A stretch of DNA of 64,000 nt, taken from Kutzneria kofuensis. Lineage in GTDB: Bacteria > Actinomycetota > Actinomycetes > Mycobacteriales > Pseudonocardiaceae. Every line of letters begins with the position of its first letter. Position 1 is the stretch's first letter. Positions 14,647-31,165 of the stretch are shown piece after piece. Both the position numbers and the translations under genes were made by a program. A model generated the notes under the pieces. The model saw only the letters and a list, made by a program, of their open reading frames with translations. It did no database searches and was not told the DNA's origin. The stretch spans positions 7,380,038-7,444,037 of the forward strand of contig NZ_JACHIR010000001.1 in assembly GCF_014203355.1 (NCBI RefSeq). The letters are read 5' to 3'.

Positions 14647-15717
14647 ATGACGGACAATCCGGAGCAGTACCTCCAGTACCCGCAGCAGTACGTCCAGCCG
14701 CCCCCGGAGGCGCCCCAGCCAGGTGTGCTCCCGCTGCGCCCGGTGGACGTCGGAGCCATGATCAACGGCTCGTTCCGGGCGATCTTCCGCAACTGGCGGT
14801 CCGCGATCCTGGTGCCGTTGGCCGCTTACCTGACCGCCATGCTCGCCGCCTTCGCGCCGGCGCGCGGCATGATCGCCGCGTTCGCGGACATGGCCGGCCG
14901 GCGGCGGCCGACCGACGATCAGTTCTGGGCCTTCCTCCAGAGCTGGTTGGTCTTCGCGGCCGTGCTGCTGGTGGTGTTCGCCGCGGCGTACGTGGTCACC
15001 CAGGCCGTGGTCACGGTCGTGGTGAGCCGCGCGGTGCTGGGCCGAACCACCACTTTCGGCCAGGCGCTGCGCGCCGCCGCGCCACGGATGCTGCCGCTGT
15101 CCGGCCTGGTGGTGCTCGTCGGGCTGATGGTGTTCGGCTGCGTTTTCGTGCCGTTCGGACTGATGGTGCTGGTGGCCGTGGCCACCGGCTCCGGCGGCGT
15201 GGTCGGCATCGGCATCCTGCTGTGCCTGGGTGGGGTGGTCCTGGCCTACTACCTTCTGATCTCCTACGTGCTTGCGCCGACCGCGCTGATCCTGGAGCCG
15301 GCGCCGGTGCTGACCGCGCTGCGCCGCTCCAGCTGGCTGGTGCGCGGCGGTTGGTGGCGGGTGTTCGGCATCTTCCTGCTGGCCATGGTCATGAGCTACG
15401 TGGCCAGCTACCTGGTGCAGATCCCGATCTCGGCGGTGCAGTTCACCCAGCTGCCGAACATCATGAACAGCCGGAACCCGGATCCGGCGGCGATGTTCGG
15501 CGCGCTGCTCTCGCCGCCCGTGATGATCGCGTTCGGCGTGCTGTACGCCGTGGCGATGGCGATCACACAGCCGTTCATGATCGGCGTGCTCACGCTGCTC
15601 TACCACGACCTGCGGATCCGTAAGGAGAGCTTCCACCTGCCGCTGTGGGAGATGTCGCAGCAGCCGGACGATCTGGTCACCCCACCGCCGTCAGCGCATC
15701 CCGAAGCCACGACGTGA
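14647..15717 (+). CDS. Membrane protein with GPDPase-type membrane domain
   Basis: A 356-residue integral membrane protein. A Pro/Gln-rich cytoplasmic N terminus (about 35 residues) is followed by the conserved entry RPVDVGAMINGSFRAIFRNW and five to six hydrophobic segments. This matches the membrane domain of glycerophosphodiester phosphodiesterases found alone in many actinobacteria. There is no catalytic phosphodiesterase part. The motif ALRRSSWLVRGGWWRVFGI between the later helices is typical of the family. Function is unknown; an envelope role is plausible. GGGGGAG precedes the start. Its last 41 bases overlap the convergent soxG gene. Confidence 0.75.
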   Translation: MTDNPEQYLQYPQQYVQPPPEAPQPGVLPLRPVDVGAMINGSFRAIFRNWRSAILVPLAAYLTAMLAAFAPARGMIAAFADMAGRRRPTDDQFWAFLQSWLVFAAVLLVVFAAAYVVTQAVVTVVVSRAVLGRTTTFGQALRAAAPRMLPLSGLVVLVGLMVFGCVFVPFGLMVLVAVATGSGGVVGIGILLCLGGVVLAYYLLISYVLAPTALILEPAPVLTALRRSSWLVRGGWWRVFGIFLLAMVMSYVASYLVQIPISAVQFTQLPNIMNSRNPDPAAMFGALLSPPVMIAFGVLYAVAMAITQPFMIGVLTLLYHDLRIRKESFHLPLWEMSQQPDDLVTPPPSAHPEATT

Positions 15718-16177
15718 GGTAGCCGGCGAACGAGGGTCGCACCAGCAGCCGGTACGTCGGCGCGTCGTCGACCTGGTAGAGCACCACGTTGGCGCGGGCC
15801 AGCATGGTCTGCGCGCACCGGCCCGGGCCGAAGGCGCGCGGGTGCAGGTCGATCGAGCAGCCCTGCTCCAGCACCTCACGGGCGTCTGCCCCGGACAGCT
15901 CCAGGGCCACTCGGTTGGCCGAGACGTCCACGACGGAACCGGGGGTGTCGCCGAGCGCGGCCCGCAGCTGGGCTTCGGTCGCGCCGAACACCAGCCACTG
16001 GTCGGGTCCGAGCCACAGCACGGCCTCGGAGCCGGTGTTCGGCACCACCGGCAGCGGCGTGCCGAGCAGCTCCCCGATCCGGGTCACCGCCGGGCCGACG
16101 GGATCGACCCGCAGGTCGACCTGGTGCGGCAGGTCGACCTCGCGCAGCTCGACGGTCGTGGTGTGGCCCTCACCCAT
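15677..16177 (-). CDS. soxG: Sarcosine oxidase gamma subunit
   Basis: A 166-residue subunit of heterotetrameric sarcosine oxidase, the last gene of soxBDAG. It folds like a piece of the GcvT/YgfZ family: VGPAVTRIGELLGTPLP, GPDQWLVFG, VVDVSANRVALELSG, LEQGCSIDLHPRAFGPGRCAQTMLARANVVLY and a final RPSFAGYLTSWLRDAL. The WLGPDQWL and CAQT.LA.A.V.L motifs are those of SoxG. It overlaps the end of soxA by 8 bases, implying coupled translation, and overlaps the convergent membrane-protein gene by 41 bases. Confidence 0.92.
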   Translation of the reverse strand: MGEGHTTTVELREVDLPHQVDLRVDPVGPAVTRIGELLGTPLPVVPNTGSEAVLWLGPDQWLVFGATEAQLRAALGDTPGSVVDVSANRVALELSGADAREVLEQGCSIDLHPRAFGPGRCAQTMLARANVVLYQVDDAPTYRLLVRPSFAGYLTSWLRDALTAVG

Positions 16178-18884
16178 CTCGGCGCGTCCCCTCCGGGTCG
16201 TAGAAGATCGGCTCGGTCACCGTGGCGGCGATCGTCCGATCGGCCAGCGGCGCCAGCACGGTCCGGCCGACGAGCTGCCTCCCACCCTTGACCAGCGCCA
16301 GCGCGAAGGTCCGTTCCAGCGCGGCGCTGTGGTAGCTGGACGTCACGTGGCCGATCATCGGCACCGGCGGCTCCAGCGGCGTGTCCGGCGCGATCAGCTG
16401 CGCGCCTTCGGGCAGCAGGTCGTCGGGGTTCTGCGGCAGCAAGCCGACCAGCTGCTTGCGGTCCGGCCGGGACGTGTCGGGCCGCTGGTACGAGCGCTTG
16501 CCGACGAAGTCCTTGCGTGGCGAGACGATCCACTCCATGCCGAGGTCGTGCGGGGTGACCGTGCCGTCGGTGTCCTGGCCGACGATCACGTACCCCTTCT
16601 CCGCCCGCAGCACGTGCATGGTTTCGGTGCCGTACGGCGTCGGCAGTCCGGTCGCCATCACGGCGTCCCAGACGCGGGCGCCGTGCCGGCCGTCCACATG
16701 GATCTCGAAGGCCAGCTCGCCGGAGAACGACACCCGGGCGATCCGCGCCGGGGTTCCGTCGCCCAGCTCGACGTCGCGGAACGTCATGAACTCGAACGCC
16801 GCCGCCGAGCAGTCCACGTCCGGCGCGACCAGGGCCATCACGGTACGGGCCTGCGGTCCGACGACCGCGATCGTCGCCCACTGCTCGGTGACGGAGGTGA
16901 ACCACACCTTGAGGTCCGGCCACTCCGTCTGCGCCCACTCCTCGAACCAGTCCAGCACCGCGGCCGCGTTACCCGTGGTTGTCGTGGCCAGGAACCGGTT
17001 CTCGGCGATGCGCATGACCACGCCGTCGTCGAACACCATGCCGTCGGCCTTGCACAGCAGCCCGTACCGGCAGTGGCCGACCTTGAGCTTGGCGAACGCG
17101 TTGGTGTACATGCGGTTCAGGAACTCGCCGGCGTCCGGACCCTGGATGTCGATCTTGCCAAGGGTGGACGCGTCCATCACCGCGACGCCGGTGCGCGCGG
17201 CCCGGCACTCGCGGAGCACGGCCGCCTTCATGTCCTCGCCGGGCCGCGGGTAGTACCAGGGACGCTTCCACTGGCCGACGTTCTCGAACACCGCGCCGTT
17301 GCGGACATGCCAGTCGTGCATCGGCGTCATGCGCACGGGATCGTGCAGCTCGCCTCGATCCCGACCGGCCAGCAGGGCGAACGACACCGGCGTGTAGGGC
17401 GGGCGGTAGGTCGTGGCGCCAACGCCACCCGGCGTGGACGCCCCGAGCAGCTGCGCGATCACGCCGATCGCCGCGAACCCGGCGGTTTTGCCCTGGTCGT
17501 GTGCGGTGCCGATGGTGGTGTACCGCTTCACGTGCTCCACCGACCGCATGCCCGCTCCGGTCGCCCGGCGCACGTCGGCGACGGTCGCATCCCGTTGCAG
17601 GTCAACGAACTGGCGGTCCTCCGGGCCGTCCACGAACCACACCGGTTCCGGGGGTGCGGTGGCTTCCGTCGTGGTGTGAGGAACTTCCGGCAGGGTGCCG
17701 GCGAATCCGGTCAGCCGTGCCGCCTCCAGGCCGGCTCGGAAGCCTTCGTCCAGGCAGCCGGCGAGGTCGTAGACGGCGTTCGCGGCGCCCACGATGTGCT
17801 GCGCCTGCACGGACTTGTCCGGCACGAAGGCGGCGACCCGCTCGTCGTACCGGGTCTTGCCCTGGGACTGGGAGAACAGGTGCACGGCCGGGTTCCAGCC
17901 GCCGGACACCGCCAGCAGATCACAGGCGATCAGTCGGTCGCCCACCCGCACGCCGCCGATTCGGCGCGTGCCCAGCGCCTGCCGCACCACCGAGCCGGTG
18001 AGCACCTCGATGCCGAGTTCCCTGGCCCGGCTGACCAGCCCGGCCGGAGGATTCGGTCGACTGTCTACAATCGCCGATGTACGGTCGGCCAGGTCGAACG
18101 CCGTCTCGTATGCGCTGTCGTTCGTCGTCGCGACCACGATGTTTTCGCCCGGCAGCGCCGCGTACCGGTTGACGTACTGGCGGACCGCCGAGGACAACAT
18201 GATGCCCGGCAGGTCGTTGTCGACGAACACCAGCGGCCGCTCGTGCGCGCCGGTCGCCAGCACCACCCGCCGTGCGCGAACGTGCCATACGCGGTGCTTT
18301 TCCGCCAGGGCAACGAAGTTCTGGTCGTAGTAGCCGAATGCCGTGGTGCCGGTGAGAACCCTGGTCTCCGGCAAGGAGTCGAGCTCCTCGACGGCGTCGG
18401 CCAGCCAGTCCAGCAGCCGGTTCTCCGTCAGGAGCGAGCCGCCGAGCTCGCGCTGCTCGTCGGCGAGGATCGTGCGCGCCCCGGTCCGCCCCGCTGCCAG
18501 CGCCGCGGCGACGCCCGCCGGGCCGCCGCCGATCACCAGCACGTCGCAGTGCACGTTCCGCTTGTCGTACCGGGCCGGATCCGGCGTGTCGGTCAACCTT
18601 CCCTTGCCCGACAACAGGTTTGCCGCCAGGCCGTCGACCAGCTCGACGGTCGTGGCCAGCTGCATGGGATCGTCCAGCTGCACCAACGCGTTCGGCTCGT
18701 CCACGCCCGCCGCGAAGATCCCGCGCGGCCGTCCCCGGTACGTGCTCGGCGCGACCTCCAGCAGCCCGTTCGCGATCATCGCCGACGCCAGCGTGTCGCC
18801 GGCGCAGCCCGTGTACTCGATGTCGTCCACGGTGAAGCGCAACGGCTTCGTGCGGTCGATTCGACCGCCCTCGGGGAGTCTCAT
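16170..18884 (-). CDS. soxA: Sarcosine oxidase alpha subunit
   Basis: A 904-residue subunit of the enzyme that converts sarcosine, O2 and tetrahydrofolate to glycine, H2O2 and methylene-THF. The N terminus has a 2Fe-2S-like fold without its cysteines (FTVDDIEYTGCAGDTLASAM). An NAD-binding domain follows (VIGGGPAGVAAALAAGRTGA, then ATGAHERPLVF). The C-terminal third is a GcvT-type tetrahydrofolate domain (REC.A.RTGVAVMDASTLGKI, EKGYVIVGQDTDGTVTPHDL, FVGKRS). It is slightly shorter than the 960-odd residues common in corynebacterial and Pseudomonas SoxA. The start overlaps the soxD stop by 4 bases. Confidence 0.96.
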   Translation of the reverse strand: MRLPEGGRIDRTKPLRFTVDDIEYTGCAGDTLASAMIANGLLEVAPSTYRGRPRGIFAAGVDEPNALVQLDDPMQLATTVELVDGLAANLLSGKGRLTDTPDPARYDKRNVHCDVLVIGGGPAGVAAALAAGRTGARTILADEQRELGGSLLTENRLLDWLADAVEELDSLPETRVLTGTTAFGYYDQNFVALAEKHRVWHVRARRVVLATGAHERPLVFVDNDLPGIMLSSAVRQYVNRYAALPGENIVVATTNDSAYETAFDLADRTSAIVDSRPNPPAGLVSRARELGIEVLTGSVVRQALGTRRIGGVRVGDRLIACDLLAVSGGWNPAVHLFSQSQGKTRYDERVAAFVPDKSVQAQHIVGAANAVYDLAGCLDEGFRAGLEAARLTGFAGTLPEVPHTTTEATAPPEPVWFVDGPEDRQFVDLQRDATVADVRRATGAGMRSVEHVKRYTTIGTAHDQGKTAGFAAIGVIAQLLGASTPGGVGATTYRPPYTPVSFALLAGRDRGELHDPVRMTPMHDWHVRNGAVFENVGQWKRPWYYPRPGEDMKAAVLRECRAARTGVAVMDASTLGKIDIQGPDAGEFLNRMYTNAFAKLKVGHCRYGLLCKADGMVFDDGVVMRIAENRFLATTTTGNAAAVLDWFEEWAQTEWPDLKVWFTSVTEQWATIAVVGPQARTVMALVAPDVDCSAAAFEFMTFRDVELGDGTPARIARVSFSGELAFEIHVDGRHGARVWDAVMATGLPTPYGTETMHVLRAEKGYVIVGQDTDGTVTPHDLGMEWIVSPRKDFVGKRSYQRPDTSRPDRKQLVGLLPQNPDDLLPEGAQLIAPDTPLEPPVPMIGHVTSSYHSAALERTFALALVKGGRQLVGRTVLAPLADRTIAATVTEPIFYDPEGTRRDG

Positions 18885-19135: not shown

Positions 19136-20341
19136 CTAGTGTGCGACGGCCGCGGCGCCGTGCTCGTCGATCAGCGCCCCCGTGGTGAACCGCTCCAGGG
19201 CGAAGGGCGCGTTCAGCGGGTGCGCCTTGCCGGTCGCCAGCGTGTGCGCGTACGTCCAGCCGGAGGCCGGTGTCGCCTTGAAACCGCCGGTGCCCCAGCC
19301 GCAGTTGACGAAGAGGTTGTCCACCGGGGTCGGGCCGATGATCGGCGACGCGTCCGGGGTGACGTCGACGATGCCGCCCCAGGTGCGGAGCACGTGCGCC
19401 CGGGCGAAGATCGGGAACAGCTCCAGCGCGGCCGCCATCTGCTGCTCGATCACGTGCACCGAACCGCGCTGCGCGTAGGAGTTGTACGGGTCGATGCCCG
19501 CGCCCATGACCAGTTCGCCCTTGTGCGCCTGGCTGACGTAGACGTGCACGTGGTTCGACATCACCACGCACGGGTGCACCGGTTCCAGCAGCTCCGACAC
19601 CAGCGCCTGCAGTGGATGGCTCTGCACCGGCAGCCGCACGCCCGCCAGGCTGGCCAGCACACTGCTGTGCCCCGCCGCCGCGAGCCCGACCCGGCCGGCG
19701 CCGATCGGCCCCAGGTTCGTCTCCACCCCGACGACCTTGTTGCCGTCCTTGAGAAATCCCGTGACCTCGCAGCCCTGGACCAGGTCCACGCCCAACTCGT
19801 CCGCCTTGCGCGCGAACGCCCATGCCACGTGATCGTGCTTGGCGATGCCCGCTCGCGGCTGCAGCGTCGCGCCCAGCACCGGGTAGCGCACGTCCGGCGA
19901 GGTGTTGACGATCGGGCAGAACTTGCGGACCTCGTCCGGGTCCAGCCACTGCGCGTCCACCCCGTTCAGCCGGTTCGCGTTCACCCGGCGGGTTCCCTCG
20001 CGGACGTCCTGCAGCGTGTGCGCCAGGTTCAGCACTCCCCGCTGGCTGAACAGGATGTCGTAGTCCAGCTCGGCGGACAGGCCCTCCCACAGCTTGAGGG
20101 CGTGCTCGTAGATCGCCGCGCTCTCGTCCCACAGGTAGTTCGAGCGGATGATCGTCGTGTTCCGGGCCATGTTCCCGCCCGCCAGCCACCCCTTCTCCAG
20201 CACCGCCACCCTGCGGATGCCGTGGTTGGCCGCCAGGTAGTACGCGGTGGCCAGCCCGTGCCCGCCACCGCCGACGATGACCACGTCGTAGCCGGACCTG
20301 GGTTCGGGATTCCGCCACAGCCGGTCGGGGTGCTCGGACAT
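19136..20341 (-). CDS. soxB: Sarcosine oxidase beta subunit
   Basis: A 401-residue FAD/FMN-carrying catalytic subunit and first gene of the sox operon. The dinucleotide motif [18 protein letters not shown] is followed by [32 protein letters not shown] and, near the end, [10 protein letters not shown]-like sequence with [14 protein letters not shown], as in the DAO-fold SoxB family. Substrate oxidation and the covalent FMN site belong to this subunit in characterised enzymes. ATG 20,341 has GGAGG six bases upstream; the longer frame to 20,416 runs through the operator and is rejected. The conserved 36-bp operator ends only 24 bases upstream. Confidence 0.96.
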
Positions 20342-20364
20342 GACACCTCCAGGGAGCCTGCGCT

Positions 20365-20400
20365 GTTGCAGATTAAGCGCACCGTTGCGCTCTCCACAAC
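20365..20400. promoter_or_regulatory. 36-bp operator, copy 1 (soxB promoter)
   Basis: GTTGC at 20,365 is followed exactly 19 bases later by the 17-bp palindromic box GTTGCGCTCTCCACAAC (20,384-20,400). The same two-part arrangement recurs before the ferredoxin and betB genes. It lies 24 bases from the soxB start, where a bound protein would block transcription. The adjacent IclR protein is the likely ligand. Confidence 0.75.
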
Positions 20401-20468
20401 ACCCGTGCCGTGGCACCCCGCGAGTCCCGCTCTCCGTCCTACCGAAATACGGTTTCGGGCATACCCCC

Positions 20469-20583
20469 GCGAGTCCCGCTCTCGGGCACCTCGGCGAGTT
20501 CCGCCCTCGGGCTACTTCCGGCGTGGTTGCGTCAGGTGGGTGGGCCCGAGGACGGAACTCTCCAGCCCGAGAGCGGGACTCGC
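20469..20583. repeat. Nested inverted repeat between soxB promoter and iclR
   Basis: GCGAGTCCCGCTCTCGGG (20,469-20,486) is the exact reverse complement of 20,566-20,583. Inside it a second pair, GAGTTCCGCCCTCGGG (about 20,496-20,511) with 20,545-20,560, matches 15 of 16 bases. A further direct copy of GCGAGTCCCGCTCT lies at 20,420-20,433. The arms resemble the outer arms (GCGAGTCACGCTCT) of the elements at 51,377 and 58,974. It starts 11 bases after the iclR stop, so it may also end iclR transcripts. Confidence 0.8.
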
Positions 20584-20593
20584 GTGCTGGCGG

Positions 20594-21367
20594 TCAGCCG
20601 GTGTGGCCGATGCGGTGGCTGATCTCCTTCGCGCCATCGGCCGCCAGCCGGGCGACCTCGGCGAACCGGTCGGTCGTCAGCCGGTACGACGGCCCGGACA
20701 CGCTCAACGCCGCCACGACGTTGCCGTCCATGCCGCGGATGGGCACGGCCACGGCGTTCAACCCGATCTCCAGCTCGTCGGCGGTGCTCGCCCAGCCGGC
20801 GGCGAGGGCGGCGTCGAGCTCGGCGCGGAGCAGGCCGGAGTCGATGATGGTGCGAGGGGTGTACATGGTCAGGGGCCGGGCCAGCAGTTCCTCGCGGATG
20901 GTCGCGGGCTGGTTGGCGAGCAGGACCTTGCCGCTGGAGGTGGCGTGCAGCGGCGTCCGCTGCCCGACCCAGTTGATGGTGGCGACGGTGGCGTTGCCCC
21001 GCACCTGGCTGACGTTGATCGCGTAGCCGCCGTCGAGGATCGCGACGTTGACGGTCTCGCCGACCTGGGCGGCCAGCCGCTCGCACACCGGACGGCTCTC
21101 CCGGGACAGGTCCATCTGCGCGGCGGTGGCCCCGGCCAGCCGGACGATGCCGAAGCCGAGCCGGTACTTGCCGCGGTCGCCGGTCTGCTCGACGAGCCCT
21201 CTGGAGTCCAGCACGGACACCAGCCGGAACGCGGTGGACTTGTGCACCCCCAGCTCGGCGGCCAGTTCGGTGATGCCCATCTCGCCGTGCAGGGCCAGGA
21301 ACTCCAGGACGGAGACCGCGCGGTCGACCGACTGCACGAGTGCGGCCGACCCCTCGCTTGAAGCCAT
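20594..21367 (-). CDS. IclR-family transcriptional regulator of betaine/sarcosine genes
   Basis: A 257-residue regulator. The N-terminal winged helix (SVDRAVSVLEFLALHGEMGI, then AELGVHKSTAFRLVSVLDSRG) is followed by the IclR effector domain (GETVNVAILDG, TPLHATSSGKVLLA, and AVAVPIRGMDGNVVAALSVSGP). It sits in the middle of the choline-to-glycine block, divergent from the Rieske ferredoxin gene and upstream of soxBDAG. IclR proteins often control catabolic operons next to them in response to a pathway intermediate. Three copies of a shared operator close to start codons suggest that it represses the whole set (inference). Confidence 0.93.
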   Translation of the reverse strand: MASSEGSAALVQSVDRAVSVLEFLALHGEMGITELAAELGVHKSTAFRLVSVLDSRGLVEQTGDRGKYRLGFGIVRLAGATAAQMDLSRESRPVCERLAAQVGETVNVAILDGGYAINVSQVRGNATVATINWVGQRTPLHATSSGKVLLANQPATIREELLARPLTMYTPRTIIDSGLLRAELDAALAAGWASTADELEIGLNAVAVPIRGMDGNVVAALSVSGPSYRLTTDRFAEVARLAADGAKEISHRIGHTG

Positions 21368-21425
21368 GCGCGCACTGTAGTCGAGCTGATGGAGCCTTGA
21401 CGGCGCATCGCCGGGTGCTCACTCT

Positions 21426-21461
21426 GTTGCGTGCAGCACGACAAGTTGTGCTATACGCAAC
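21426..21461. promoter_or_regulatory. 36-bp operator, copy 2 (iclR / ferredoxin promoter)
   Basis: GTTGC at 21,426 is followed 19 bases later by the 17-bp palindromic box GTTGTGCTATACGCAAC (21,445-21,461). It lies in the divergent region between iclR and the ferredoxin gene and ends 11 bases before the ferredoxin start. One bound complex could control both directions. Confidence 0.75.
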
Positions 21462-21472
21462 CGGAGGTCGAA

Positions 21473-21790
21473 GTGATCGAGGTGTGCAGAGTCGCCGAAC
21501 TGCCGCCGGGGGAGGCGGTCAGAGTCGCGACCGTCGACCCGCCCATCGCCGTCTTCCATACGGAAGGCGGCGAACTGTATGCAGTCGACGACACCTGCAC
21601 GCACCAGGACGCCTCGCTGGCGGACGGCTGGCTGGAAGGCTGCACGGTGGAGTGCCCGCTGCACGCCTCCTGCTTCGACCTCCGCACGGGCCAGCCGAGC
21701 GGCCCGCCGGCGACGAAGCCGATCCGCACCTACCCGGTGATCGTCGAGGACGGCGTTATCCGGGTGGCCTACAGCGAAGTGGCCTGCTGA
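21473..21790 (+). CDS. Rieske-type [2Fe-2S] ferredoxin
   Basis: A 105-residue small Rieske protein. The cluster motif is C-T-H-x16-C-P-L-H (CTHQDASLADGWLEG followed by CTVECPLHASC), as in ferredoxins of aromatic-ring dioxygenases. I chose GTG 21,473 because GGAGG lies five bases upstream; the frame to 21,431 would run through the operator. The stop overlaps the start of the reductase by one base (TGATG). It most likely carries electrons from that reductase to the Rieske betaine demethylase encoded at 30,026, since no other Rieske oxygenase is near. Confidence 0.93.
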   Translation: MIEVCRVAELPPGEAVRVATVDPPIAVFHTEGGELYAVDDTCTHQDASLADGWLEGCTVECPLHASCFDLRTGQPSGPPATKPIRTYPVIVEDGVIRVAYSEVAC

Positions 21791-22947
21791 TGCGCACGGC
21801 GGCGGTGGTCGGCGCCTCCCTGGCCGGTCTGTCCACGGCCCGCGCCCTGCGCCAGCAGGGCTTCGACGGCCGCCTGGTCATCGTGGGCGACGAGCCGCAC
21901 CGGCCGTACGACCGGCCACCGCTGTCCAAGGAGTTCCTGGCCGGCAAGAGCTCGGACATCGGCCTGCGCACGCCGGACGACGAGGCGCTGGACTTCGACT
22001 GGCGGTTGGGCACGCGGGCGCTGAGCCTGCACCCGCGCGACCGGTCCCTGCAGCTGTCGAACGGCCAGACGCTGCGCTGCGACGGCGTGGTCATCGCGAC
22101 GGGTGCCCGGGCGCGGTGGCTGCCGGGCACCGAGGGCGTCAACGGCGTCCACGTCCTGCGGACGTTGGACGACGCGATCCGGCTGCGCAGCGAACTCGTG
22201 CCGGGTGCCCAACTCGTGGTCGTCGGGGCCGGCTTCATCGGCGCCGAGGTGGCGTCGACCGCCCGCTACCTGGGCGCGGACGTCACGGTCATCGAGACGG
22301 AATCCGTGCCGCTGGCCCGCCAGCTCGGGTCGGAGATGGGTCTGGTCTGCGCCGGCCTGCACGCCGACCACGGCGTCCGCCTGATCACCGACGTCCCGGT
22401 GAAGCGCATCCTCGGGGCGAGCCGGGTCCGCTGCGTGGAGCTGGCCGACGGCCGGCAGATCCCGGCGGACGTGGTGGTCGTCGGCATCGGGGCGACGCCG
22501 AACTTCGAGTGGCTTGCCGGCTCGGGGCTGCAGCTGGCCGACGGCGTCGTCACGGATGCGGCCTGCGCGACCGGGTTGCCCGAGGTGGTGGCGGTGGGCG
22601 ACGTCGCCGCGTCGTACAGCGTGTACCTGCACGACCGGCATCGCGCCGAGCACTGGACCAACGCCCTGGAGCAGCCTCTCACGGCGGCGGCGACGCTGCT
22701 GGGCGAGCCGCGGCCGCACCTCTCCGCGCCGTATTTCTGGTCAGACCAGTACGGGGTTCGCATCCAGTTCGCCGGTCGCCGGAGGGAGGGGGACACCGTC
22801 CGGGTGATCGAGGGCAACACCGACCAACGCAGCTTCCTCGCCGTCTACGAACGTGGTGATCTGCTGGTCGGGGTGCTCGGCATGAACCAGCCGAAGTTGT
22901 TCTCCCGGTGGCGACGGCAGCTGGCCAGGCCGGTGCTGGCCCCTTGA
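21790..22947 (+). CDS. NAD(P)H:ferredoxin reductase, FAD-dependent
   Basis: A 385-residue reductase of the putidaredoxin-reductase/BphA4 type. The FAD motif (AAVVGASLAGLSTARALR), RPYDRPPLSKEFL, ATGARARWLPG, the NAD(P) motif VVVGAGFIGAEVASTARYLG and the second FAD block (EVVAVGDVAA) are all present in the usual order. The C-terminal reductase domain includes PYFWSDQYGVRIQFAG. Translationally coupled to the ferredoxin, it forms a two-component electron-transfer chain. In Pseudomonas the equivalent GbcB combines reductase and plant-type ferredoxin in one protein, so this locus uses a different solution. Confidence 0.94.
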   Translation: MRTAAVVGASLAGLSTARALRQQGFDGRLVIVGDEPHRPYDRPPLSKEFLAGKSSDIGLRTPDDEALDFDWRLGTRALSLHPRDRSLQLSNGQTLRCDGVVIATGARARWLPGTEGVNGVHVLRTLDDAIRLRSELVPGAQLVVVGAGFIGAEVASTARYLGADVTVIETESVPLARQLGSEMGLVCAGLHADHGVRLITDVPVKRILGASRVRCVELADGRQIPADVVVVGIGATPNFEWLAGSGLQLADGVVTDAACATGLPEVVAVGDVAASYSVYLHDRHRAEHWTNALEQPLTAAATLLGEPRPHLSAPYFWSDQYGVRIQFAGRRREGDTVRVIEGNTDQRSFLAVYERGDLLVGVLGMNQPKLFSRWRRQLARPVLAP

Positions 22948-22972
22948 CGAGCCGGCGGGCACCGTCAATGCT

Positions 22973-23008
22973 GTTGCGAATTCAGCGTGCCGTTGCGTAA
23001 TCAGCAAC
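22973..23008. promoter_or_regulatory. 36-bp operator, copy 3 (betB promoter)
   Basis: GTTGC at 22,973 is followed 19 bases later by the 17-bp box GTTGCGTAATCAGCAAC (22,992-23,008), the most symmetrical copy. It ends 20 bases before the betB start. Copies 1 and 3 also share bases outside the palindrome (ATT.AGCG..CCGTTGCG). Confidence 0.75.
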
Positions 23009-23028
23009 AAGCCTGATCGGGGGTCCTC

Positions 23029-24492
23029 GTGGCGGAACTGTTCATCGGCGGGAACTGGACGGCCGGGAGCGACACCCGTCCGGTGCTCAACCCGTTCGAC
23101 GGCAGCGTGCTCACGACAGTCGCCGAGGCCGACGCGAAGGACGCCCTGAGAGCCGTGCGAGCCGCCAGGGCGGCCTTCGATGCGGGCTCGTGGCCGAGGA
23201 CGCCGGCGGCCGAGCGCGGCGCGCTGCTGAACACCGTCGCCGACCTGCTGCTGCGCGACCGCGACGACATCGCCAGAACGGAGACGCTGGACACCGGCAA
23301 GACGCTCGGCGAGAGCATCGCGGACGTGGACGACGTCGTCCGCGTCTTCCGCTACTACGCCGACCTGGCCGACAAGCACCCGGGCCGGATCGTCGACACC
23401 GGCATCCCGAACGCGCAGAGCAAGATCGTGTACGAGCCGGTCGGCGTCTGCGCGCTGATCACGCCGTGGAACTACCCGCTGCTGCAGGCGTCCTGGAAGA
23501 TCGCGCCGGCGCTGGCCGCCGGCAACACGATCGTGGTCAAGCCGAGCGAGATCACGCCGCTGACCACGATCGCCCTGGTCCGCCTGATCGAGGAGGCCGG
23601 GATCCCGGCCGGCGTGGTCAACCTGGTGTTGGGCGCGGGCGCCACGGTCGGCGCGGCGCTGGCCGAGAGCGACGACGTGGACCTGGTGTCGTTCACCGGC
23701 GGCCTGGCCACCGGGCAGCGGATCATGGTCGCGGCCGCCGGCAACGTCAAGAAGGTCGCCCTCGAACTCGGCGGCAAGAACCCGAACATCGTGTTCGCCG
23801 ACGCCGACCTTGAGACCGCCAAGGACCAGGCGCTCAACGCCGTCTTCCTGCACGCCGGCCAGGTCTGCTCGGCCGGGGCCCGGCTCCTGGTGCAGGACAG
23901 CATCTACGACGAGTTCGTCGCCGAGATCGCCGCCCGCGCCGACCGGATCCGGATCGGCAACGGCCTGGACGAGAACAGCCAGAGCGGGCCGCTGGTGTCC
24001 GAGGAGCACCGCGCCAAGATCGAGCGGTACGTCGAGTCCGCGATCGCCGAGGGCGCGAAGCTGCTCGCCGGCGGCCGCCGGCCCGACGAACCCGAGCTGC
24101 AGCAAGGATTCTTCTACCGGCCGACGGTGTTCGCGGACTGCCGCCGCGACATGACCGTGGTGCGAGAGGAGACGTTCGGCCCGATCCTCACCGCCGAACG
24201 CTTCTCCACCGAGGAGGAAGCCGTCGAGCTCGGCAACGACACCGACTACGGCCTCGCCGGCGCGGTCTGGACCCGCGACGCCGGCCGGGCCGCCCGGGTC
24301 GCCGGCGCGCTGCGGCACGGCACGATCTGGATCAACGACTACCACCCCTACCTGCCGCAGGCGGAATGGGGCGGCTTCAAGCGTTCCGGCATCGGCCGCG
24401 AGCTCGGTCCCACCGGCCTCGACGAGTACCGCGAGGCGAAACACGTCTACACCAACACCGATCCGAAACCACTCGGCCTGTTCCCGGGGTGA
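23029..24492 (+). CDS. betB: Betaine aldehyde dehydrogenase
   Basis: A 487-residue NAD(P)-dependent aldehyde dehydrogenase, expected to oxidise betaine aldehyde to glycine betaine. The fold motifs are [20 protein letters not shown], the general base Glu246 in LELGGKNPN and the nucleophile Cys280 in [12 protein letters not shown]. The family placement as BetB rests on overall similarity and on the choline dehydrogenase gene that follows with a stop-start overlap. GTG 23,029 is preceded by GGGGG. It is the first gene of a five-gene run (betB, betA, permease, DMG dehydrogenase, Rieske oxygenase) with almost no gaps. Confidence 0.9.
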
Positions 24493-26131
24493 TGAGGATG
24501 TACGACTTCGTCGTGGTCGGCGGCGGGTCCGCCGGCAGCTGCCTGGCCAACCGACTGTCCGCCGATCCCGCCACGAAGGTCCTGGTGCTGGAGGCCGGCC
24601 GGCCGGACTACTTCTGGGACGTGCTGGTCCACATGCCGGCCGCCCTCACCATGCCGATCGGAAACCGCTTCTACGACTGGAAGTACGAGTCCGAGCCGGA
24701 GCCGGCGATGGGCGGCCGGCGCATCTACCACGCCCGTGGCAAGGTGCTCGGCGGCTCGTCCAGCATCAACGGCATGATCTTCCAGCGCGGCAACCCGCTG
24801 GACTACGAGCGGTGGGCCGCCGACGAGGGCATGAAGTCCTGGGACTACGCGCACTGCCTGCCGTACTTCAAGAAGATGGAGAACTGCCTGGCCGGCGCGG
24901 ATGAGTACCGCGGCGGCGACGGGCCGCTGGTCCTGGAGCGCGGGCCGGCGGACAGCCCGCTGTTCAAGGCGTTCTTCCAGGCCGTGCAGGAGGCGGGTTA
25001 CCCGCTCACCAAGGATGTCAACGGATACCAGCAGGAGGGCTTCGCCCCGTTCGACCGCAACCTGCACCGCGGCCGGCGGCTCAGCGCGGCCCGCGCGTAC
25101 CTGCACCCGGTGCGCAACCGTCCCAATCTGACGATCCGGACCCGGGCCTACACGACGAGGATCCTGTTCGAGGGCACGCGGGCGGTCGGGGTCGAGTACG
25201 TCCAAGGTGGACGGACGAAGGAGGTCCGGGCCGGCGAGGTCATCCTGTGCGGCGGCGCGATCAACTCGCCGCAGCTGCTGCAACTCTCCGGCGTCGGGAA
25301 TGCCGAAGAACTGAAGGCATTGGGCATCGACGTCGTGCACGACCTGCCCGGCGTGGGGGAGAACCTCCAGGACCACCTGGAGGTGTACATCCAGTACGCC
25401 TGCACCAAGCCGGTGTCGGTCGCGCCGTACATGAAGTGGTACCGCAAGCCGATGGTCGGGTTGCAGTGGTTGTTCCGCAAGGGACCCGGCGCCACCAACC
25501 ACTTCGAGGGCGGCGGCTTCGTGCGCGGCAACGACGAGGTGGCCTACCCGAACCTGATGTTCCACTTCCTGCCGATCGCCGTGCGCTACGACGGTTCCCT
25601 ACCGGCCGGTGACCACGGCTACCAGGTGCACGTGGGACCGATGTACTCCGACGCCCGCGGCTCCGTGAAGATCACGTCCCGTGATCCGCGGGTGAAGCCG
25701 GCGCTGCGGTTCAACTACCTGACCACCGAGCAGGACCGCCGCGAGTGGGTGGAGGCGGTCCGGGTCGCGCGGAACATCCTTACCCAGCCGGCCTTCGACC
25801 CCTACAACGGTGGCGAGATCTCGCCCGGGCCGTCGGTCCAGACCGACGAGGAGATCCTGGCCTGGGTGGCCAAGGACGGAGAGACGGCGCTGCACCCCTC
25901 GTGCACGTGCCGGATGGGGGTGGACGAGCAGTCCGTCGTGGACCCGGAATCGCTGCGGGTGCACGGGGTCGAGGGGCTGCGGGTCGTCGACGCGTCGGTG
26001 ATGCGCTACGTCACCAACGGCAACATCTACGCGCCGACCATGATGATCGCGGAGAAGTCCGCGGACCTGATTCTCGGTCGGCAGCCCCTGCCGCCGGCCG
26101 AGGTGGAGTTCTACCGCCACCGGGAGCAGTG

Positions 26132-26132
<1 letters not shown>
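24492..26132 (+). CDS. betA: GMC-family choline dehydrogenase
   Basis: A 546-residue FAD enzyme of the glucose-methanol-choline family, expected to oxidise choline to betaine aldehyde. It shows the FAD motif [17 protein letters not shown], both GMC signatures ([19 protein letters not shown] and [15 protein letters not shown]), the active-site HPSCTCRMG histidine and the closing [14 protein letters not shown]. The start at 24,492 overlaps the betB stop (TGATG); ATG 24,498 (MYDFVVVGG) is an alternative. Within GMC enzymes a substrate other than choline cannot be excluded, but the flanking pathway supports choline. Confidence 0.88.
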
Positions 26133-30018
<3,886 letters not shown>

Positions 30019-30025
30019 GAAGGGA

Positions 30026-31165
30026 ATGTCCGTGACCGCCAGCCTCATCCCCACGCTACCCGGCGCGTACTACACGGATCCGGAGATCTTCCGGCAGGAG
30101 CAGGAACGCGTCTTCGAGGCGATGTGGTTCTGCGCCGTCCGGGCCACGGACATCCCGACGCCGGGCAAGTTCCGCACCGTCCAGATCGGACGGGAGAGCG
30201 TGCTGGTCTCGCGCGCAAGGGACGGTGCGGTCAAGGCGTTCCTGAACATCTGCCGCCACCGGGGTGCCAAGCTGTGCCTGGACGAGGAAGGCGAGGTCAA
30301 GCGCGCCTTCCAGTGCCCGTACCACGCGTGGACGTACGGTTTGGACGGCAAGCTCGTCGCCGCCCCGAACCTGACCAAGATGCCCGACATCGACCGGGTC
30401 GAGTACGGCCTGGTCAACGTGCACGTCCGGGAATGGCTCGGCTATGTCTGGGTGTGCCTGGCCGACAAGCCGCCGTCCTTCGAGGACGATGTCGTCGGCG
30501 CCTGCACCGAGCGTCTCGGCGACGCCGACGCCATCGGCCACTACGATGTCGCCAATCTCGAGGTGGGCCGGCGGATCGTCTACGACGTCAAGGCCAACTG
30601 GAAGCTCATCGTCGAGAACTTCATGGAGTGCTACCACTGCGCCACCATCCACCCCGAGCTCACCGAGGTGCTGCCCGAGTTCACCGAGGGCCTGGCCGCG
30701 CAGTACTACGTCGGTCACGGCGCCGAGTTCGGCGACGAGATCCGGGGCTTCACCGTCGACGGCAGCGAGGGTCTGGACCGGATCCCGACCGTCACCGAGG
30801 AGCAGGACCGGCGCTACTACGCCATCACCGTCAAGCCGCAGGTGTTCATCAACCTCGTGCCCGACCACGTGATCCTGCACCGCATGTTCCCGCTGGCCGC
30901 CGACCGCACCGTGGTCGAGTGCGACTGGCTCTACCTGCCCTCGGTCGTCGAGTCCGGCAAGGACGTCTCCCGGTCCGTCGAGCTGTTCCACCGGGTCAAC
31001 GAGCAGGACTTCGAGGCGTGTGAACGCTGTCAGCCGGCCATGAGCTCCCGCGCCTACGCCAAGGGCGGTGTGCTCGTGCCCAGCGAGCACCACATCGGCG
31101 TCTTCCACGAGTGGCTCCTGGGCAAGCTCGTCCAGGCGCAACGAGGCCGGGTCCGCCCGGCGTAG
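30026..31165 (+). CDS. Rieske oxygenase, GbcA-like glycine betaine demethylase
   Basis: A 379-residue Rieske non-haem iron oxygenase alpha subunit. The Rieske centre is Cys76-x-His78 (ICRHRGAKLC) and Cys97-x2-His100 (CPYHAWTYGLDG). The mononuclear iron site is in ENFMECYHCATIHPEL with His204 and His209, plus an acidic ligand near VNEQDFEACERCQ. The NFMECYHC and HPEL motifs and the place in the operon match GbcA-type enzymes that turn glycine betaine into dimethylglycine and formaldehyde. Stachydrine and carnitine demethylases are close relatives. Electrons should come from the ferredoxin/reductase pair at 21,473-22,947. ATG 30,026 or GTG 30,032 could start it. Confidence 0.9.
   Translation: MSVTASLIPTLPGAYYTDPEIFRQEQERVFEAMWFCAVRATDIPTPGKFRTVQIGRESVLVSRARDGAVKAFLNICRHRGAKLCLDEEGEVKRAFQCPYHAWTYGLDGKLVAAPNLTKMPDIDRVEYGLVNVHVREWLGYVWVCLADKPPSFEDDVVGACTERLGDADAIGHYDVANLEVGRRIVYDVKANWKLIVENFMECYHCATIHPELTEVLPEFTEGLAAQYYVGHGAEFGDEIRGFTVDGSEGLDRIPTVTEEQDRRYYAITVKPQVFINLVPDHVILHRMFPLAADRTVVECDWLYLPSVVESGKDVSRSVELFHRVNEQDFEACERCQPAMSSRAYAKGGVLVPSEHHIGVFHEWLLGKLVQAQRGRVRPA

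Follow-up and report, generated by a model that had tools for sequence, protein, structure and literature searches.

Choline and glycine betaine occur widely in soil and plant litter, and bacteria that feed on them have to choose between keeping betaine as an osmoprotectant and burning it. How this choice might be controlled is the question raised by a locus of the actinobacterium Kutzneria kofuensis, in which genes of a putative choline-to-glycine pathway surround a gene for an IclR-family regulator and a long two-part motif recurs in front of three genes. We analysed this locus within a 64,000-nucleotide (nt) stretch, hereafter the window (contig NZ_JACHIR010000001.1, positions 7,380,038 to 7,444,037 of the forward strand). 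With a probability that we put at roughly 0.86 from sequence comparison, the three sites serve as operators for the IclR-family protein whose gene lies between them. The element is best read as a symmetric operator of 38 base pairs (bp), TGTTGCG-N24-CGCAACA, which would consist of two tandem GTTG-N9-CAAC palindromes with centres 19 bp apart and thus of four half-sites; on the same best reading, the outer half-sites are nearly invariant, the inner boxes are weaker, and sites 1 and 3 each have one inner half-site in decay. Across several actinobacterial families, the keep-or-burn choice appears to fall to a conserved regulator of the IclR type, whose operator is sharply defined and can be searched for.

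Three sites in one locus

The initial annotation had pointed to the pattern GTTGC-N14-GTTG-N9-CAAC at three places close to start codons, and a pattern search of the window returns exact matches precisely there, at 20365-20400, 21426-21461 and 22973-23008. The corresponding 38-bp elements, with the letters matched in each of their four boxes and their scores on the symmetric matrix described below, are:

20364..20401: operator site 1, before soxB (minus strand); boxes 4, 1, 4 and 4 of 4 letters; exact pattern; 29.5 bits
21425..21462: operator site 2, between iclR and the ferredoxin gene; boxes 4, 3, 4 and 4; exact pattern; 44.3 bits
22972..23009: operator site 3, before betB; boxes 4, 1, 4 and 4; exact pattern; 33.3 bits

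The computed gaps are indeed short: 23 nt from site 1 to the ATG of soxB on the minus strand, 11 nt from site 2 to the GTG of the ferredoxin gene and 20 nt from site 3 to the GTG of betB, with the iclR start lying 58 nt from site 2. A GGAGG-like ribosome-binding site stands between site and start for both the ferredoxin gene and soxB. What we call the fourth box (positions 14-17) is nearly complete in site 2, where it reads CGAC, and retains a single one of its 4 letters in sites 1 and 3; the weak inner box is downstream for soxB and upstream for ferredoxin and betB.

The 12-letter core GTTG-N15-GTTG-N9-CAAC has 3 exact matches in the organism's own genome (10,435,448 bases in 5 contigs), all in this locus, and the reversed control pattern has 0. 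From base composition, 0.41 matches per genome and 0.0025 per window are expected, so the frequent random occurrence that the initial annotation had considered damaging to its proposal is not observed. When up to two mismatches are allowed, the window contains 5 matches, compared to a mean of 1.24 in shuffled sequence, with 1 of 100 shuffles reaching 5; of the two additional matches, one is site 2 read on the minus strand (1 mismatch) and the other, at 25249 (2 mismatches), is unrelated. The same relaxed search of the whole genome gives 27 matches and its control 30, that is, no excess that would allow additional sites to be claimed in it.

Three Kutzneria genomes contain a weaker sequence that resembles the operator (L186:1501-1536 in the own genome, contig C1 6575430; L037; and G002:C1:4848951; L and G numbers denote loci and genomes of our set). 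The copy in the own genome, one of the 27 relaxed matches, precedes a steA gene (NF040608, 457.7 bits, cut-off 150) and was judged unrelated to the operator; the copies in the two other genomes score 18.4 and 13.5 bits on the symmetric matrix.

Anatomy of the operator in related genomes

Homologues of the IclR protein were found at E <= 1e-60 in 112 of the 150 genomes of the family. We fetched 100 regions of 12.0 to 19.6 kilobases, 98 of them around IclR matches and two (L168 and L170) for motif matches alone; the IclR matches left out of this set include second copies in G125 and G141, which adjoin exact motif matches. Together with the window and L068-L071, and after removal of the duplicate Kutzneria regions L065-L067, these regions make up the scanned set of 105 sequences (2.05 megabases).

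In this set, the perfect GTTG-N9-CAAC palindrome, 17 bp long with GTT and AAC ends, occurs 109 times, versus 13 in the reversed control. Pairs of palindromes, one perfect and the other with at least 6 of 8 letters, are found 46 times at a distance of 19 bp, versus once in the control, and 0 to 8 times at each of the remaining distances between 12 and 44. The left palindrome of the tandem is without its inner half in sites 1 and 3, and this decay of one inner half-site accounts for what the initial annotation described as a "third half-site".

A symmetric matrix built from 29 nonredundant seeds out of the same 105 sequences yields, at a threshold of 20 bits, 164 sites, compared to 0 in the reversed sequence. 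The seeds were picked by their boxes, and the box letters are therefore inflated in the profile; the letters outside the seed choice are nevertheless conserved, with 1.6 and 1.0 bits at positions 5 and 6 and 1.0 and 1.2 bits at positions 31 and 32 of the unsymmetrised profile. Position 0 is T in 76% and position 37 is A in 65% of the 82 nonredundant sites, both outside the matrix, so the T and A that flank the 36 bp belong to the element, which brings its length to 38 bp. The consensus is TGTTGCGtAttgCGcAACnnGTTgCGcaaTaCGCAACA.

An alternative is that the true operator has three boxes, namely GTTGC plus the GTTG-N9-CAAC palindrome, and is recognised by a complex that is itself asymmetric, as has been suggested for PcaU, PobR and HmgR. 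The decayed box in sites 1 and 3 fits this alternative, as does the count of complete boxes in the scanned set, where three are complete at 57 places and all four at only 4 (none of either in the reversed sequence), and three-box motifs have been described for 32 groups of the IclR family (PMC8222616). Yet when the sites are turned to their gene, the two inner boxes are equally conserved, with 4.02 of 6 letters on the left and 3.96 on the right versus 1.7 expected, among 82 nonredundant sites whose selection by the symmetric matrix lifts both values; the left box is the better one in 29 of these sites and the right in 34. Furthermore, in 37 nonredundant three-box sites chosen blind to the fourth box (with no filter, or on positions 5 and 6 only), that box matches on average 1.76 of its 4 letters versus 1.0 expected. 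In these sites, position 13 is G in 23 (p 7e-4), C14 is found in 24 (p 2e-4) and A15 in 15 (p 1.5e-4), although A16, in 8 (p 0.18), and C17, in 18 (p 0.06), are weak. Finally, the weak box may lie on either side with respect to the gene. The fourth box thus appears to be degenerate yet present across relatives and, the inner boxes being equal, a fixed asymmetric complex would not be needed, so this part of the earlier proposal is not upheld. Taken by themselves, sites 1 and 3 can fairly be called three-box sites; we consider the three-box operator unlikely.

A fifth half-site, a CGCAC box one 19-bp period upstream that was first suggested by the flanks of the ferredoxin and dmg sites, was dropped as weak: in the 82 nonredundant sites, it matches 2.39 of 6 letters versus 1.7 expected and 1.44 at the mirror position.

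Association of the operator with iclR and the pathway genes

If the symmetric element is the operator of the IclR protein, as the initial annotation had supposed for its shorter motif, the two should travel together, and this is what we find. Among the 101 iclR loci, 79 of the 81 with pathway genes in the fetched region have a site, versus 5 of the 20 without such genes, the other 15 having none (Fisher p = 6e-12, not corrected for relatedness). Two of these five, L134 and L148, have the site in front of a DmdA-like gene, to which we return below. Nearly all sites (149/164) stand before a gene homologous to one in the window, at -45 to +350 nt ahead of its start, with a ferredoxin start in range for 57 of the 164 and an iclR start for 68; among the 50 sites with ferredoxin as the nearest gene, 24 share one distance, the same as in the window. 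Sites at soxB are also present in five other Kutzneria regions (L072-L076), and sites at betB in the Nocardioides loci L069 and L070.

Exact matches to the pattern across the family point in the same direction. There are 88 distinct ones in 61 of the 150 genomes, and 69 of these, in 52 genomes, reach at least 20 bits. All ten high-scoring matches located far from IclR matches precede pathway or DmdA-like genes (L168, L170, L194-L201): in L197-L201, the site stands before gbcA, dmg/soxB or ferredoxin, and in L168, L170 and L194-L196 before a gene similar to folate-dependent demethylases (in L195 by tblastn only). Of 19 low-scoring matches, 11 were fetched (L203-L213, one shortened by a contig end), and 0 of the 11 are near a pathway gene. 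Among the 52 genomes with a high-scoring match, only G068 falls among the 20 genomes listed as devoid of IclR (18 further genomes unmatched by the IclR search lie outside these 20), and G068 has a split iclR match beside its site. For the other 19 listed genomes, 18 have no GbcA at E <= 1e-60, and the single match is a fragment in a genome that is 74% complete.

Conceivably, another regulator of the same genomes binds the motif, iclR being merely a neighbour. The 5 sited iclR loci without pathway genes would accord with this, and the assignment of IclR as the binder is itself a prediction from sequence. Against it stand the co-occurrence in 79 of 81 loci, the split iclR gene of G068 and the fit of the half-sites to the GTT-11-AAC skeleton of the IclR family (PMC8222616), which together make a different binder very improbable.

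The recognition-helix consensus VHKSTA.RLV is common to site-bearing and orphan regulators. Orphans with this consensus, whose fetched regions contain neither pathway genes nor sites, are found at L142:9365-10210 and in 14 other loci; the neighbours of the siteless orphan in L142 encode a histidine kinase and a response regulator, a two-component pair that we take to be mtrAB, as well as thymidylate kinase and a protein with an LpqB domain. At L084, L088, L089, L097, L104, L112 and L114, the same clusters contain a second IclR copy, which is 50-52% identical to the one in the window and has slightly different letters around the recognition helix.

Other families and a folate-linked operon

A class-wide draw detected IclR homologues in 52 of 296 genomes, and new loci were returned for 29 of the best matches, all from other families. 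These held-out loci contain 28 sites of at least 20 bits, distributed over 17 of the 29, whereas the reversed control has 0 even at 16 bits; a few of the training seeds of the matrix came from Nocardioides loci. The possibility that orthologous loci lack the motif, on which the initial annotation had made its proposal depend, is thus answered by 164 sites in the 105 sequences and by sites in 17 of 29 loci of other families. The same counts bear on the explanation that the similarity is due to chance or to shared promoter sequence. The null result of the relaxed own-genome search is what this explanation predicts, but the exact matches (3 versus 0, all in one locus), the related loci (164 versus 0) and the held-out loci (28 versus 0) reduce it to a negligible probability.

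The operator also precedes a gene for a DmdA-like methyltransferase with a GCV_T domain, in seven loci: L134:9658, L148:9529, L168:9298, L170:9744, L194:4017, L195:4067 and L196:4030. In L134, L168, L170, L194 and L196, the best model of the product is dimethylsulfoniopropionate demethylase, with 303-326 bits, under the cut-off of 410; in L148 and L195, the assignment rests on tblastn likeness. The next gene is MTHFR-like in all four loci in which it was scanned (L134, L168, L170 and L196), and there is a dimethylglycine dehydrogenase-like gene in L134 and L168 and a formate-tetrahydrofolate ligase in L134. The folate arrangement is found both in genomes without GbcA at E <= 1e-40 (G029, G093, G129 and G025) and in genomes with it (G045, G078 and G136, same threshold). 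G113, which is not among the genomes with the arrangement, has no GbcA either. Tentatively, the operator may mark a multi-family actinobacterial regulon of methyl removal from glycine betaine, in which, in some genera, the folate operon demethylates betaine or a relative without the oxygen-dependent GbcA; we regard this as possible but still doubtful. The operator offers a handle for finding pathway genes from sequence alone, including the folate-linked operon, and would be usable as a sensor element once the inducer is known.

A proposed mechanism and its difficulties

How would the IclR protein act on these sites? Two dimers, that is, a tetramer, could bind side by side on the four half-sites, for which the IclR family offers a precedent in tetramers on tandem palindromes; tandem palindromes 18-22 nt apart occur in 94 orthologous groups of this family, and most of its site centres are at -20 to -80 (PMC8222616). 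In site 2, the centre of the right-hand palindrome is at about -20, compared to a preferred centre of -22 in the family (PMC8222616). With its end 11-23 nt ahead of the start codons, near the ribosome-binding site that is needed there, the element should cover the core promoter or the start point; with a ribosome-binding site between site and start, transcription would have to begin in or at the edge of the operator, and the bound protein should block the polymerase. Thus, the protein would repress soxBAG, the ferredoxin-reductase genes, the betBA...gbcA operon and probably iclR itself, and we consider repression the probable mode of action. An acid of the pathway, glycine betaine, dimethylglycine or sarcosine, might then release it.

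Alternatively, the IclR protein could bind these sites as an activator, or as a repressor of its own gene and an activator of the operons, a role argued for BhcR. BhcR provides the closest curated model and is needed for expression in vivo (PMC11323563). The geometry is hard to reconcile with activation: the gap from site to start is just 11-23 nt in the window and one distance is shared by 24 of the 50 sites nearest to ferredoxin, leaving little room for a promoter downstream of the site, whereas an activator normally binds further upstream. Activation strikes us as rather improbable.

Several observations weigh against the picture of a repressor on a symmetric operator. Apart from the scarcity of sites with four complete boxes, the sequences of relatives are related and so are not independent of each other. 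L124 has five pathway genes and no 20-bit site (its best scores 17.8), and L147 has soxA and no site. Among the held-out loci, 12 of 29 are without a 20-bit site, some with betA or gbcA in view, so the operator in this shape is not universal. A consensus scan of 20300-23100 detected no sigma-70-type promoter, and the overlap of operator and promoter accordingly rests on distance. In the alignment with AllR, the placing of G160, A161 and D212 of Escherichia coli IclR is presumed. Read in this way against Table 1 of PMC11323563, the window protein retains both serines of the S-x-S pair but has S, S and T in place of G, A and D, so that three of the five oxygen-binding pocket positions of E. coli IclR would differ; given these differing letters, the inducer is a guess, and they hint at an acid other than glyoxylate. 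Some relatives, such as BhcR, activate (PMC11323563).

Genes of the locus

The genes around the three sites, with strand and best-supported assignment, are as follows.

15677..16177, minus strand: soxG-like, sarcosine oxidase gamma subunit; TIGR01375 115.5 bits, under cut-off 143.95
16170..18884, minus strand: soxA, sarcosine oxidase alpha subunit; TIGR01372 1182.1 bits, cut-off 1164
19136..20341, minus strand: soxB, sarcosine oxidase beta subunit; TIGR01373 640.7 bits, cut-off 529.45
20594..21367, minus strand: iclR-family regulator gene, 257 amino acids; Pfam IclR_C 140.2 bits (cut-off 24), HTH_IclR 54.5 bits (cut-off 22)
21473..21790, plus strand: Rieske-type ferredoxin; Pfam Rieske 80.4 bits
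21790..22947, plus strand: ferredoxin reductase; NCBIfam HcaD 273.5 bits, under cut-off 450
23029..24492, plus strand: betB, betaine-aldehyde dehydrogenase; TIGR01804 635.6 bits, just under cut-off 668.6
24492..26132, plus strand: betA, choline dehydrogenase; TIGR01810 856.7 bits, cut-off 732.1
26132..27646, plus strand: permease of the amino-acid-permease family; Pfam AA_permease_2 143.7 bits, best NCBIfam model ureacarb_perm 525.7 bits, under cut-off 740.45
27646..30018, plus strand: dimethylglycine dehydrogenase-like flavoprotein with DAO, FAO_M and GCV_T domains (Pfam); dimethylglycine is its putative substrate
30026..31165, plus strand: GbcA-like Rieske glycine betaine monooxygenase; best model NF058607 221.7 bits, under cut-off 670

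Together, these genes would carry choline to glycine, as judged from their predicted products; the names GbcA, SoxG, BetB and reductase fall below the cut-offs of their best models and are likely rather than certain. The regulator scores above the Pfam gathering thresholds for both the IclR helix-turn-helix and the IclR C-terminal domain and thus belongs to the IclR family.

Between site 1 and the end of iclR, at 20414-20589, a GC-rich repeat of 19 nt occurs in three direct copies, two of them identical and one at 79%, and has an inverted partner at 20565-20589, with 20-21 nt arms that are 90-100% complementary. This is possibly an interspersed genomic repeat or a terminator-like element.

Comparison with known systems

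In Pseudomonas, glycine betaine breakdown is activated by GbdR, an AraC-family protein, whereas the window regulator is of the IclR family; it matches IclR-family and weaker winged-helix models and no AraC model, consistent with the contrast drawn in the initial annotation. Within the IclR family, TtgV is an efflux-pump regulator with a different operator sequence. It resembles the window protein at phmmer E 5e-15 (PDB 2xrn/2xro), and its DNA-bound tetramer is mentioned in PMC8222616. The closest curated family is BhcR of Paracoccus denitrificans (NF045644; PMC11323563), which also shares the divergent gene arrangement, but BhcR serves a glyoxylate pathway and activates in vivo, and the window protein, for which it is the best NCBIfam model, scores 181.4 bits, short of the cut-off of 350.

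With respect to the DNA, the operator is most similar to the tandem GTT-11-AAC motifs of IclR group 1 (Suvorova and Gelfand 2021, PMC8222616), with which it shares the 17-bp GTT...AAC palindrome, centres within 18-22 nt (here mostly 19), sites near the start codon and near the regulator gene, and a presumed tetramer. Compared to the published consensus GTTYCRYW3RYGRAAC, C5 and R6 fit, and letter 4 is G here and Y there. The TphR operator of Comamonas is TTTTTGCGCATAGCGCAAAAA (Table 1 of PMC8222616), and its core, TTGCGCATAGCGCAA, is close to the half-operator found here, GTTGCGTATAGCGCAAC; however, TphR controls a terephthalate pathway in a proteobacterium, and its operator is a single palindrome as listed in that paper. 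In the three-box sites of PcaU, PobR and HmgR, a palindrome is accompanied by an additional half-site, much as in sites 1 and 3; sites of that type consist of exactly three boxes, which form a group 1 pair and a group 2 pair (PMC8222616), whereas here there is a degenerate fourth box across relatives and the whole element is symmetric.

Betaine and sarcosine are not named in the main text of PMC8222616, although the regulon may already be predicted in its supplementary tables, which cover 181 orthologous groups. Among the literature matches listed, with subscription journals mostly outside their scope, none shows, in its title or the first part of its abstract, an IclR regulator that controls the breakdown of choline, betaine, dimethylglycine or sarcosine. 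The operator architecture is thus known for the IclR family and the mechanism is ordinary; what is worth following is the target set, on a pathway whose actinobacterial regulator we did not find described, along with its apparent extension to a folate-linked demethylation operon.

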